Source of the DNA: a virus | Strand: one strand, 5' to 3' | IMG/VR virus record: IMGVR_UViG_3300032050_000900 | Span: 1-22,052 of that record | DNA length: 22,052 nucleotides | Part shown: positions 6,557-18,747 of the stretch, in pieces | How the letters are laid out: the number at the start of each line of letters is the position of its first letter | Position numbering within the stretch: position 1 is the stretch's first letter | The notes under the pieces: model-generated | Databases searched by the model: none | What the model saw: only the letters and a program-made list of their open reading frames with translations | Told to the model about the DNA's origin: nothing | Made by a program: the position numbers and the translations under genes

Positions 6557-6586
6557 TAAAAGTAGGTAATTCCGATGTTAAACAAA
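6557..6586 (-). promoter_or_regulatory. promoter-like element for the portal operon
   Basis: On the minus strand TTTG (6583-6586) is followed after 18 bases by TACTTTTA (6557-6564), inside the longer box ACCTACTTTTATA. This is a one-mismatch version of TAnnTTTG. It lies between the terminator at 6580-6613 and the ATG at 6550, the right place for a new transcription unit. The start codon is only six bases from the box, so the mRNA would be nearly leaderless. Confidence 0.5.
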
Positions 6587-6613
6587 AAGGGCTACCGAAT
6601 GGCAGCCCCTTTT
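6580..6613 (-). terminator. intrinsic terminator after the tail-tube gene
   Basis: In minus-strand RNA, GGGCTGCC (6601-6608) pairs with GGTAGCCC (6589-6596) across the loop ATTC, followed by TTTTTGTTT. One pair is G-U on this strand and becomes A-C on the other strand, which supports minus-strand function. It would end or attenuate transcripts coming from the capsid and tail-tube genes. Confidence 0.8.
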
Positions 6614-6633
6614 GCATGAAACACTCAAATCAA

Positions 6634-7149
6634 TCAAGAACCGAGAGCGAGCGAAGTTACAACAGAAGATTGAACTTTCAAAGGTAAATCGGTTTCTTTG
6701 TGCAAAAAGTTCAGCACATGACCTTTGAAGTCACCAAACGCCTGACCGAAATTGCTTTCACTCTGCTGCAACTGAACACCATAGTCAGCACCCAACAGCC
6801 AGTAGTCACCGCTTGCATCAAGGGCAATGGCCAACATTCTGTTCTGTGCCAGCAGCTTAATTTCGTTACGCTGGGCGGTTGTTACTTTGTGCAGACGAGC
6901 AACAAGGTCGGCTTCGTAAAATACAGTGCCGTTCTCGGTTGAGGGAATAGTACGCCAAGTCATAGAGGCAGTTTCTTTTTCAAGTTCGTACTTGAAATAA
7001 GATTTGCCACCTGACAAGGTGTGGGCGGATACTTCTCCGCTTGATTTAGTGAGGGTTGACTTCGCTGAAAATTCAACAAGCCAAATGGTCTTAATGCCTG
7101 CACTTGCTGTCTTACAGTCAAGTACAAAGCCCGTGGTTAACTGACACAT
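6634..7149 (-). CDS. probable major tail tube protein
   Basis: A 171-residue beta-rich protein encoded alone between two terminators, directly downstream of the major capsid gene. Recognisable segments are CQLTTGFVLDCKTASAGIK at the N-terminus, a middle helix (TTAQRNEIKLLAQNRM), and the GDYWLLGADYG and FGQAFGDFKGHVLNFLHKE segments near the C-terminus. Tail tube proteins are commonly of this length and often have the GD..G....L.F..KE pattern near the end. Isolation as a single-gene unit after the capsid gene suggests a protein needed in high copy number. The alternative is a capsid decoration or head-tail protein. The start is ATG, preceded by an A-rich leader (TTAAAAT). Confidence 0.55.
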   Translation of the reverse strand: MCQLTTGFVLDCKTASAGIKTIWLVEFSAKSTLTKSSGEVSAHTLSGGKSYFKYELEKETASMTWRTIPSTENGTVFYEADLVARLHKVTTAQRNEIKLLAQNRMLAIALDASGDYWLLGADYGVQLQQSESNFGQAFGDFKGHVLNFLHKETDLPLKVQSSVVTSLALGS

Positions 7150-15710: not shown

Positions 15711-16313
15711 CTATTTGGCTATCTCGGTAGTGACAAATGCTGAAATACGCAACCCGGTAATGTCGGATAGTTTCTGTGCAATGACATCCACGTTTTGCTG
15801 GGTAAGTACATCGGCTATAAATCCAGAACCCTTGTAACCAAACCTTTTGATTGTGCCTTTGCTGTGAATTTTACGCGCAATAGCAATAGCCATTGATTTA
15901 CGCAGTTCAAGTACAGATTGACCGCTTTGCCCTTTTGATTTGCGAACTGGAATGCCCTTTGCAGAAATCCATTGTTCTAAACTTTGTACGAGTGTCGGTT
16001 TGCTTGCAGTGGTTGTTTTGGTCGGCCCTCTTCCACTTTCTACCCATTGGTAGTAATCAGCCATTTCGATTGCAACCGTAATACCCTGTGGGGTGACACT
16101 TGGAAAATCAGCCCTAATGCTCTGCACAAGATTGCCTGTTGCTTTGACACCCTTTTCCATTGCTGATTGTTTCAGCTTGTCAATAATGACTTGTGCAACC
16201 CTTTCCATCGCATCACCAAGCACAGAGCCGCCCATACCTGCGGTGGCTTCATCAATGCCGATTGTTTTTAACAAATCATCCAAACGGGCTAAATCTGCCT
16301 TGCTTATGTTCAT
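15711..16313 (-). CDS. HK97 gp10-like tail-completion protein
   Basis: A 200-residue protein starting at the ATG at 16311-16313. The frame is open upstream and would begin MVDEGSIPSPGA, but that stretch is simply the translated T-arm and acceptor stem of the tRNA-like element, so it is not taken. The product has an N-terminal helix (ISKADLARLDDLLKTIGI) and the core typical of gp10-like proteins: KLKQSAMEKGVKATGNLVQS, VAIEMADYYQWVESGRGP. A helical C-terminal half follows (LRKSMAIAIARKIHSKG). Members of this family act at the head-tail joint or as minor tail proteins. The ATG directly follows the last base of the tRNA-like element. Confidence 0.7.
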   Translation of the reverse strand: MNISKADLARLDDLLKTIGIDEATAGMGGSVLGDAMERVAQVIIDKLKQSAMEKGVKATGNLVQSIRADFPSVTPQGITVAIEMADYYQWVESGRGPTKTTTASKPTLVQSLEQWISAKGIPVRKSKGQSGQSVLELRKSMAIAIARKIHSKGTIKRFGYKGSGFIADVLTQQNVDVIAQKLSDITGLRISAFVTTEIAK

Positions 16314-16429
16314 TGCACCGGGTGAGGGGATCGAACCCTCGTCCACCATCTTTGAATTGCTATTGTAGTGCCGCTCAAAGCAACCCGTTATCCGGAATGG
16401 AGATGTTACCTATTATACACTAACCCGGC
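16314..16429 (-). tRNA. tRNA-like element with an enlarged anticodon region
   Basis: Read on the minus strand, GCCGGGT (16429-16423) pairs with ACCCGGT (16323-16317), giving a 7-bp acceptor stem with one G-U. The D-arm is GTGT (16420-16417) with ACAT (16406-16403) around a loop containing GG. The T-arm is a canonical GAGGG-TTCGATC-CCCTC (16340-16324). CCATT (16400-16396) can pair with GATGG (16350-16346) as the anticodon stem, leaving a 5-base variable loop. The loop between them is 45 bases instead of 7, about 38 extra. Possible anticodons (CCG near the 5' side, CAA near the 3' side) cannot be decided. No CCA is encoded. It may be a tRNA with an insertion, a degraded tRNA, or a tRNA mimic. 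Confidence 0.55.
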
Positions 16430-16448
16430 AAGGCCGCAACCTCACTAA

Positions 16449-16477
16449 TAAAAGTAGGTCAAATCATTTCCTGCAAT
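16449..16477 (-). promoter_or_regulatory. promoter-like element for the tRNA-like gene
   Basis: Minus-strand ATTG (16474-16477), a 17-base spacer and TACTTTTA (16449-16456), inside ACCTACTTTTATTA. It lies about 20 bases before the 5' end of the tRNA-like element and overlaps the stop of the chaperone extension. A start near 16445 would give a short 5' leader to the tRNA-like RNA. The -33 box is imperfect. Confidence 0.4.
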
Positions 16478-17546: not shown

Positions 17547-17574
17547 CAAATATACAAAATTAAATAATAACAAA
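17547..17574 (-). promoter_or_regulatory. TAnnTTTG promoter before the AT-rich small gene
   Basis: Minus-strand TATATTTG (17547-17554) is an exact TAnnTTTG match five bases ahead of the ATG at 17542. A TTTG lies 16 bases upstream (17571-17574), a little closer than usual. It would allow transcription of the small gene separately from the terminase. Confidence 0.4.
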
Positions 17575-18747
17575 TACACCCTTTTTATTCTTTTGGCTGC
17601 AATACCGAGCAAGTGCCAACGCACAAACAGCATCATCGTGCAACCCTGATGGGGCAGAATAACGCAACCCGGTTGCCGTGTGTTCAAATTCAAAGTTACG
17701 CATTTCATCTGCGATTATGCCTTCGGGGAATTTAATCAGCCCAGCGTGAACATCGGCTGTCAACTGCTCCATCATTTGTTGCTTGCTTACTGATGTGAAT
17801 TTCACACCGATTGCACGAGGACAGACACGCTGTATTTTCTCAACAATAGGGTCACCTACCCCGGTGCTATCCAATGCCGCAGGTGTGCTGCCAATGGTAC
17901 GAATAATTCGCTGCTCTGTCTGCGCCCAGTCCTTTTGAAAGCGGTCAAAATAGCACACCCGGTATTCGGAGTCAAGGCCAATGATCACTGTGTAATCGCT
18001 ATACTTCGCCAAATCTATACCAAACCATTCGGTATTGGCGGTGGAAATCGGTGCGATGCACTGCGAAATATACGACAATCCAAATGGGTTACTACCATCC
18101 TCGGTTGGTTCGGCAAGGTACAACTCCGAAAAGATATGCTGTGGCAAATCCCTTTTTGCCTGTTCAACTTCCTCAAATTTAAGGATGCCAGCGTTCACAC
18201 CGTCGTATGCGGTGATTTTGTGGAACTCGTAGTTTGGTTCTCCCATCCTTGCCCGTTCACTTAACTTATATCCCCAGTTCTTTTTGCCCTTTACGTTCCC
18301 GATTAGTTTGCACTTGCCCTCTGTCTTGGTCAGGGTTGAACGTAAGGCGAACCATGCTTCTTCCCTTGCCCTTGTGAACTCGTCAAACACGGCTGCATAC
18401 ACATCGTCACCATAAAGGTTGTCGGGCTTCTCTGCTGACTTGAATTGAATGATGCCACCCGTTGGCGTGGTCAGTCGCAGTTTGCTTTCATTGACTTTAA
18501 AAAATGATTTATCAGTCACTTGTGTACGCATCCTGTTAAATGCAATTTCGGCCTGCTGATACACCGGTGCAACCCACCACACTGATTGATTTTCTTTGAG
18601 TGTCAATGCCTGCTCAAATAACCAAATAATATGCGATGCCGTCTTGCCTACTTTGGTGGCGGCTGCTGTAATCGTGTACCTTGCATGGCTGTCTAATATC
18701 CTGCGTTGGTAATCGGTTACGAATGGTCGCTTATATTGGATGTGCAT
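17560..18747 (-). CDS. terL: terminase large subunit
   Basis: A 395-residue ATPase-nuclease that pumps DNA into the prohead and cuts it. The N-terminal ATPase has a Walker A-type loop ATKVGKTAS near residue 32 (T-K-V-G-K-T, lacking the first glycine of the classical P-loop, as in many terminases). The Walker B motif YAAVFDEF is near residue 120. A coupling-type segment follows (KCKLIGNVKGKKNWGY). The nuclease domain has acidic motifs of the RNase H fold: FGIDLAKYSDYTVIIGLD, ALDSTGVGDP and HDDAVCALALA. The length is somewhat short for the family but all motifs are present. The ATG overlaps the end of the glycosyltransferase gene by 31 bases. Confidence 0.9.
   Translation of the reverse strand: MHIQYKRPFVTDYQRRILDSHARYTITAAATKVGKTASHIIWLFEQALTLKENQSVWWVAPVYQQAEIAFNRMRTQVTDKSFFKVNESKLRLTTPTGGIIQFKSAEKPDNLYGDDVYAAVFDEFTRAREEAWFALRSTLTKTEGKCKLIGNVKGKKNWGYKLSERARMGEPNYEFHKITAYDGVNAGILKFEEVEQAKRDLPQHIFSELYLAEPTEDGSNPFGLSYISQCIAPISTANTEWFGIDLAKYSDYTVIIGLDSEYRVCYFDRFQKDWAQTEQRIIRTIGSTPAALDSTGVGDPIVEKIQRVCPRAIGVKFTSVSKQQMMEQLTADVHAGLIKFPEGIIADEMRNFEFEHTATGLRYSAPSGLHDDAVCALALARYCSQKNKKGVFVII

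Follow-up and report, generated by a model that had tools for sequence, protein, structure and literature searches.

A tRNA-like element of 117 nt, here called TLE-A, lies beside a structural gene of a tailed phage and is best explained, with a probability that we put at about 0.68, as a phage small RNA that would use the tRNA fold as a scaffold and form homodimers through an allele-specific tag. The candidate tag is a hexamer that varies between related phages yet stays self-complementary.

The window, that is, the whole stretch of DNA analysed, is a single virus record of 22,052 bases. Terminase (17560-18747), neck/tail-completion, tape measure, head protease and portal genes were recognised on its minus strand. 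Searches of named phages returned none close to the window phage, the top terminase match being 31% identical, and the promoter box described below points to a Bacteroidota host. TLE-A occupies the intergenic site between an upstream gene (16770-16459) and the neck gene, the true start of which is likely the ATG at 16313-16311, the longer ORF to 16349 being mechanical; more distant relatives of the neck protein align from residue 12-13 onward, which supports this start. Elsewhere in the window, a strong GC hairpin followed by a T run (6578-6707, minus strand), with a sub-threshold match to Rfam STnc70, is probably a terminator between structural genes. The features of the TLE-A site are as follows.

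15711-16313, minus strand: downstream gene, neck1 / tail completion (phrog_5, E 1.2e-5)
16314-16430, minus strand: whole element TLE-A, 117 nt (Rfam tRNA, our own covariance model, homologue alignment)
16423-16429, minus strand: acceptor stem, 5' strand GCCGGGT; pairs with 16317-16323, 6 pairs invariant
16317-16323, minus strand: acceptor stem, 3' strand ACCCGGT (pairing from the alignment)
16403-16420, minus strand: D arm; stem 16420-16418 / 16405-16403, 3 pairs, 100% paired, one GC<->CG compensatory change
16397-16402, minus strand: anticodon-position stem, 5' strand CTCCAT; pairs with 16344-16349, UA<->AU and CG/UG/UA changes in homologues
16344-16349, minus strand: anticodon-position stem, 3' strand ATGGTG; pairs with 16397-16402
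16391-16396, minus strand: self-complementary hexamer TCCGGA, the proposed homodimerisation (kissing) site; six palindromic alleles in homologues
16387-16390, minus strand: linker UAAC, invariant, joining the hexamer to the insert hairpin
16354-16386, minus strand: insert hairpin; stem 16386-16377 / 16363-16354, best supported part 16383-16377 / 16363-16357, which includes TTGCT/AGCAA
16324-16340, minus strand: T arm with loop TTCGATC; stem 16340-16336 / 16328-16324, 5 pairs, 100% paired, 3 with double changes
16431-16442, minus strand: leader hairpin AGGU-UGCG-GCCU (UNCG-type loop), directly 5' of TLE-A (pairing read by eye)
16449-16456, minus strand: -7 promoter box TACTTTTA, Bacteroidota type TAnnTTTG (position in relatives; consensus from PMC9723704)
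16459-16770, minus strand: upstream gene, function unassigned, from the ORF list; no match in a PHROG search; stop 2 nt before the -7 box

The tRNA-like fold and its promoter context

TLE-A matched the Rfam tRNA family (RF00005) at 16429-16316 with 29.8 bits, barely above the gathering score of 29, and ARAGORN, which called nothing at the element in default mode, reported in intron mode a tRNA with a 38-nt intron (38-40 nt over the homologues). A homologue search with the neck protein as query yielded 80 IMG/VR loci, more than 20 of which carry TLE-A at the same place. Our own covariance model, R1, found 31 of 90 sources, a list in which some contigs are present twice, at 111-133 bits, the next class of matches reaching at most 26 bits. 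Removal of duplicates left 14 distinct homologues in a near gap-free alignment. A search for prophage copies in 395 Bacteroidota genomes returned ordinary tRNAs only, the best being a tRNA-Trp at 46 bits.

Across the 14 homologues, 95% of the cells in the structure were paired and 10 of the 28 pairs had changes on both sides; the covariation score was 0.280, compared with 0.125 in shuffles and at most 0.116 when the partners were slid by 1-3 columns. The acceptor, D, anticodon-position and T stems and the insert hairpin are supported because they are conserved or carry compensatory changes. Folding of the window element as a single sequence was ambiguous, being no better than shuffles (z -0.55). 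The first-pass annotation of this DNA had claimed convincing acceptor, D and T arms and had offered a tRNA mimic as one reading; conservation of the arms in the related phages bears out both, and the checks that it proposed, Infernal or ARAGORN with intron options and covariation across related phages, gave the results above. Its anticodon stem, CCATT/GATGG enclosing 45 bases, holds as a stem and changes in extent: the anticodon-position stem (columns 29-34/82-87, 16402-16397 / 16349-16344) has 6 bp, one of them a U.U mismatch in the window, and encloses 47 nt, and the last T-G pair of the original proposal falls in the variable hexamer. About 47 nt are enclosed in all 14 distinct homologues, compared with the 7-nt anticodon loop of a decoding tRNA, which rules out a decoding tRNA.

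Within the insert, two stems had been suggested. TTGCT/AGCAA was upheld, with four pairs that have changes on both sides: the window's version becomes TTGCA/TGCAA and TAGCAGC/GCTGTTA in relatives, and RNAalifold extends the hairpin to columns 45-54/68-77, adding three more pairs. The other, CTTTGA/TCAAAG, had no double change, paired in 77% of cells and was broken in up to 6 of the 14 sequences, and we discarded it. The leader hairpin in front of the element also covaries in relatives (AGGC-UACG-GCCU, GGGU-UACG-ACCU; read by eye). Together, these alignments indicate that TLE-A is a real, conserved tRNA-like RNA fold at a phage structural-gene site.

The promoter box of the window belongs to the TAnnTTTG type, a consensus described for the sigma-A -7 box in a flavobacterium (PMC9723704). 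Where no element stands in the leader, relatives have a box of the form TAC[A/T]TTT[A/G/C] exactly 5 nt before the neck start codon (L001-L080), suggesting a leaderless late mRNA in this phage group. In the group to which the window belongs, the -7 box is separated from the start codon by the leader hairpin and TLE-A, and the AUG follows three bases past the last acceptor pair. TLE-A could accordingly be read as mainly an RNA-processing signal, at which RNase P and 3' tRNA processing would release a leaderless neck mRNA starting CA-AUG, as the first-pass annotation had considered. We regard this as unlikely for the general function, since TLE-A is kept upstream of the promoter box in L035, L036, L051 and L054, where it cannot play this part, and the insert, the palindrome and the other scaffolds at the site are left unexplained. 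In the window's group, where the element stands between box and start codon, mRNA processing may be a second role of TLE-A.

The palindromic hexamer and its alleles

The hexamer, which immediately follows the 5' strand of the anticodon-position stem, is the most variable part of TLE-A, and its palindrome TCCGGA, which stays palindromic as the sequence changes, had been missed by the first-pass annotation. Six alleles were found, with copy numbers of 8 (TCCGGA), 6 (GCGCGC), 4 (AGGCCT), 4 (GTCGAC), 1 (AGCGCT) and 1 (GTGCAC). In an unbiased scan of 2.9 million viral contigs with the pattern CCAT-N6-TAACGGGT-N-GC, which leaves the hexamer free, it was palindromic in all 24 IMG/VR contigs in which TLE-A is present and in none of the 51 chance viral matches to the same flanking pattern. 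The same scan of genome contigs gave chance matches only, with palindromic hexamers in 3 of 118, both statements applying to the matches listed. The invariant columns 41-47 (TAACGGG) are included in this pattern and absent from an independent scan by the 3' half alone, which revealed no TLE-A copies beyond the 24-contig set. When the spacer was freed to 4-8 nt, the true copies all had exactly 6 nt, and the eight additional matches were all due to chance. One apparent non-palindromic 'element' (L269) was rejected as a chance match in a Morganella bacterial genome.

Treated as pairs, the hexamer columns were paired in 42 of 42 cells, with 20 double changes and no one-sided change, and scored 1.238 for covariation versus 0.275. 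Shuffling the columns of the six alleles left all of them palindromic in only 7 of 10^6 trials, the rule being drawn from these six alleles in metagenome assemblies, with some allele sharing from recombination. Every allele is GC-rich (at least 4 of 6 bases), with a predicted self-duplex energy of -7.5 to -10.9 kcal/mol. The mean unpaired probability of the hexamer was 0.19-0.90 in unconstrained folds and 0.67-0.89 with the conserved structure enforced; in the minimum-energy folds of single sequences, the hexamer is partly paired within the molecule.

The elements of L034 and L055 are identical apart from four of the six hexamer bases. Likewise, the sister phages L035/L036 and L051/L054 carry different alleles next to downstream genes that are 95-96% identical, and the alleles are scattered on the tree of the neck gene. 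Allele switching is thus fast, and some of the pattern reflects recombination of the whole element. At the level of sequence comparison, then, the structure, the insert hairpin, the palindrome rule and the allele switching of TLE-A are established.

Other tRNA scaffolds at the same site

In related phages, the intergenic site of TLE-A is occupied by other tRNA-like elements. The scaffold of one of these, TLE-B (L276-L395, for example L287:284-3378), has the form AGTCAGGTGGCGGAAT.GGTAGACGC - insert - CAGGTTCGAATCCTGTCCTGACTAC; the acceptor, D and T arms vary little from copy to copy, whereas the inserts differ completely. Its exact 3' end was found in at least 120 IMG/VR records, with up to six copies per record, and 159 distinct copies had a median length of 103 nt, the shortest being 55 nt and the longest 192 nt. 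In 15 TLE-B copies, a Bacteroidota -7 box precedes the element by 3-7 nt, where 0.5 such copies were expected. ARAGORN called a tRNA in only 40 of the 150 copies tested, often with impossible anticodons; most of these tRNA-scaffold genes are missed or misnamed by standard tRNA finders. The insert sits in the D loop instead in L303, L347, L362 and L054, and at L044 (about 2690-2750) and L326 a 55-nt TLE-B copy lacks the anticodon arm, its D arm being joined to the T arm. One insert family has a conserved GGTCGTAAGCC hairpin (L305, L363, L377, L382), and apparent compensatory stem changes were seen in further families (for example L287/L316/L371 and L288/L328/L332).

Palindromic hairpin loops across TLE-B inserts generally were not in excess (10 of 159 compared with 5.4 expected and a maximum of 10 in 50 shuffles), and the palindrome signal is confined to one insert family, TLE-B1. 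This family was found at L357, L366, L387, part of L412-L440, L448 and L464, and in a deposited phage genome (MW202828.1:529-632, allele CTGCAG), where it is unannotated; the acceptor stem differs in some copies (L464, MW202828.1). Its loop is apical, with 9-10 nt on a 3-bp stem, and the contigs examined contained 11 alleles of the central hexamer. Six are strict palindromes (CTGCAG, TGTACA, TAGCTA, CTCGAG, AGTACT and CACGTG), two are self-complementary through G.U pairs (CTGCGG, GTGCAT), and three have a terminal mismatch (ATGCAG, CTGCAA, AGGCCG); the central four bases are self-complementary in all 11. The chance of at least six strict palindromes among 11 random hexamers is about 6e-9. The closing stem covaries as well (GAG/CTC, GGG/CCC, GTA/TAC, GTC/GAC), and the family scored 0.826 versus 0.202 in shuffles. 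These patterns suggest TLE-B1 as a second candidate homodimer, independent of TLE-A and no proof for it.

A third tRNA-like element, TLE-C (L019:2877-2965, L022:2876-2966, L079:2879-2963 and relatives), shares the intergenic site of TLE-A. Its D loop holds an inserted hairpin that alternates between GCAG/CTGC and CCGG/CCGG around GAATGAATA, and its anticodon loop has just 3-5 nt. Its own -7 box, TAAGTTTG or TAACTTTG, precedes the first base by about 5 nt, and a terminator-like hairpin follows the element. L058 and L068 have a different putative RNA just upstream of the neck gene, also with its own -7 box and with a strong terminator-like hairpin; a TTGAGCGGT-like sequence is common to this RNA and the TLE-A insert hairpin of L005. 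TLE-A, TLE-B and TLE-C have the appearance of small RNA genes that accompany the site, not of leaders of one gene, and tRNA scaffolds with variable inserts are, judging from these records, widespread among metagenomic phages.

TLE-B1 bears on a further reading of the TLE-A palindrome, namely that it acts in DNA, as the binding site of a symmetric protein or as a methylation, cleavage or recombination site that lies inside a tRNA-like gene by chance. Palindromic hexamers are typical for dimeric DNA-binding proteins and restriction sites, and none of the six TLE-A alleles contains a G.U self-pair; even so, we consider this reading improbable. The hexamer occurs elsewhere too in several contigs (L095, L103, L097, L133), which rejects a unique cut site, and a DNA-binding protein would need a new specificity for each allele, yet closely similar sister phages differ. 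Moreover, the position of the hexamer is fixed within a conserved RNA fold, and in TLE-B1 the G.U self-pairs (CUGCGG, GUGCAU), together with the stem covariation, make sense for RNA and point away from DNA.

We give little credence to a decoy or mimic of tRNA-binding host proteins (anticodon nucleases, synthetases or tRNA-sensing defence), in which the insert would block use by the ribosome. TLE-A, TLE-B and TLE-C do retain the tRNA elbow and acceptor arm without a decoding loop, but a decoy gives no reason for the self-complementarity of the hexamer, and no defence gene was linked to TLE-A in this analysis. The new small intron envisaged by the first-pass annotation, spliced from a functional tRNA as in the ARAGORN intron call, is scarcely credible: the insert is conserved as a structure in every homologue, no uninterrupted copy occurs at the locus among them, the predicted 'spliced' anticodon is tca or caa depending on the homologue in otherwise almost identical RNAs, and a G-U or G x A pair opens the acceptor stem. 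A bulge-helix-bulge intron (3-nt bulges and a 4-bp helix at the exon junctions) is ruled out by the asymmetric 10-nt/4-nt loop between the anticodon-position stem and the insert hairpin, and a group I intron by an insert of about 40 nt, far below the group I core, and by the lack of an Rfam group I match.

A self-dimerising RNA and known systems

We propose that TLE-A is transcribed and processed into an RNA in which the acceptor, D and T arms would fold into the elbow and acceptor end typical of a tRNA; such arms should stabilise the RNA and let host RNase P and 3' processing act on it. The anticodon hairpin would be swapped for an extended arm made up of the 6-bp stem, an internal loop and the closing insert hairpin, with the self-complementary hexamer at the start of the 5' strand of the loop. 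Six adjacent bases cannot self-pair within one molecule, so that their pairing must be between two; two RNA copies would join through the hexamer by six intermolecular base pairs to give a homodimer. Because the hexamer varies yet stays self-complementary, each allele is expected to pair with itself and not with other alleles. One may speculate that such a self-specific dimer serves in co-infected cells as, for example, a device that depends on concentration or tells self from other, and a device of this kind would fit the rapid allele switching.

More tentatively, and with less than even odds in our view, TLE-A may belong to a previously undescribed class of RNAs in many uncultivated phages, with tRNA arms that are conserved and an anticodon arm that is replaced by one of many different inserts. 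At least two of these inserts, those of TLE-A and TLE-B1, which are unrelated, would then bear fast-switching self-complementary kissing loops as self-recognition tags, allowing dimers only between copies from one phage type and sensing copy number, or self and non-self, when infections are mixed. No description of such elements was found in the open-access papers searched, most subscription journals and preprints lying outside that search. To our knowledge, functional RNA homo-oligomers are rare in nature. If dimerisation holds, TLE-A would represent a new viral way of recognising one's own RNA, discovered from sequence alone.

Several known RNAs share part of this design. tmRNA likewise joins a tRNA-like end to RNA of another kind where the anticodon arm would be; membership was rejected, as no tag reading frame was found, position 3-70 is a C-G pair instead of G-U, and ARAGORN made no tmRNA call. 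The pRNA of phi29 is a phage RNA that multimerises through loop-loop pairing, but it does so head to tail through two different complementary loops and is neither palindromic nor tRNA-like; TLE-A, with a palindromic pairing site and no Rfam match to pRNA, is not a member.

The closest likeness in the pairing element is the HIV-1 DIS, a kissing loop with the six-base palindrome GUGCAC that mediates RNA homodimerisation (PMC7357161). TLE-A has the same kind of GC-rich self-complementary hexamer, kept by covariation, and its allele GUGCAC is the DIS sequence itself. In contrast, the DIS is a purine-flanked apical loop in the genome of an RNA virus, whereas the TLE-A hexamer lies in an internal loop of a DNA phage RNA, with U on both sides. 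TLE-B1, with its apical loop of 9-10 nt, is closer in form to the DIS, but its 5' flank is U-rich.

OLE, GOLLD and ROOL are bacterial or phage non-coding homo-oligomers, GOLLD and ROOL occurring in phages and often near tRNA islands (PMC12286853). The symmetric kissing loops of the first two switch palindromes, from GGCC to GAUC or AGCU for OLE and from GC to CG for GOLLD, which has been read as evidence of homomeric kissing in agreement with cryo-EM contacts (PMC12286853). The same argument, allele switching with self-complementarity kept, points to a kissing homodimer for TLE-A. These RNAs differ in being hundreds of nucleotides long and not tRNA-like, and their switching palindromes have 2-4 nt, compared with 6 nt and six alleles here; the ROOL, GOLLD and OLE models of Rfam gave no match in a cmscan of the window and 20 related loci.

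Last, the engineered tRNA scaffold for RNA production keeps the acceptor, T and D arms of a tRNA body and puts an RNA where the anticodon stem-loop would stand (PMC3753655). That scaffold is man-made, whereas the tRNA-like elements are natural, occur in phages and have covarying inserts; the phage scaffolds with swapped inserts would thus be nature's version of the biochemists' tool. TLE-A would unite this tRNA fold with an allelic self-complementary tag within one small DNA-phage RNA, and the same rule holds in a second RNA unrelated to it.
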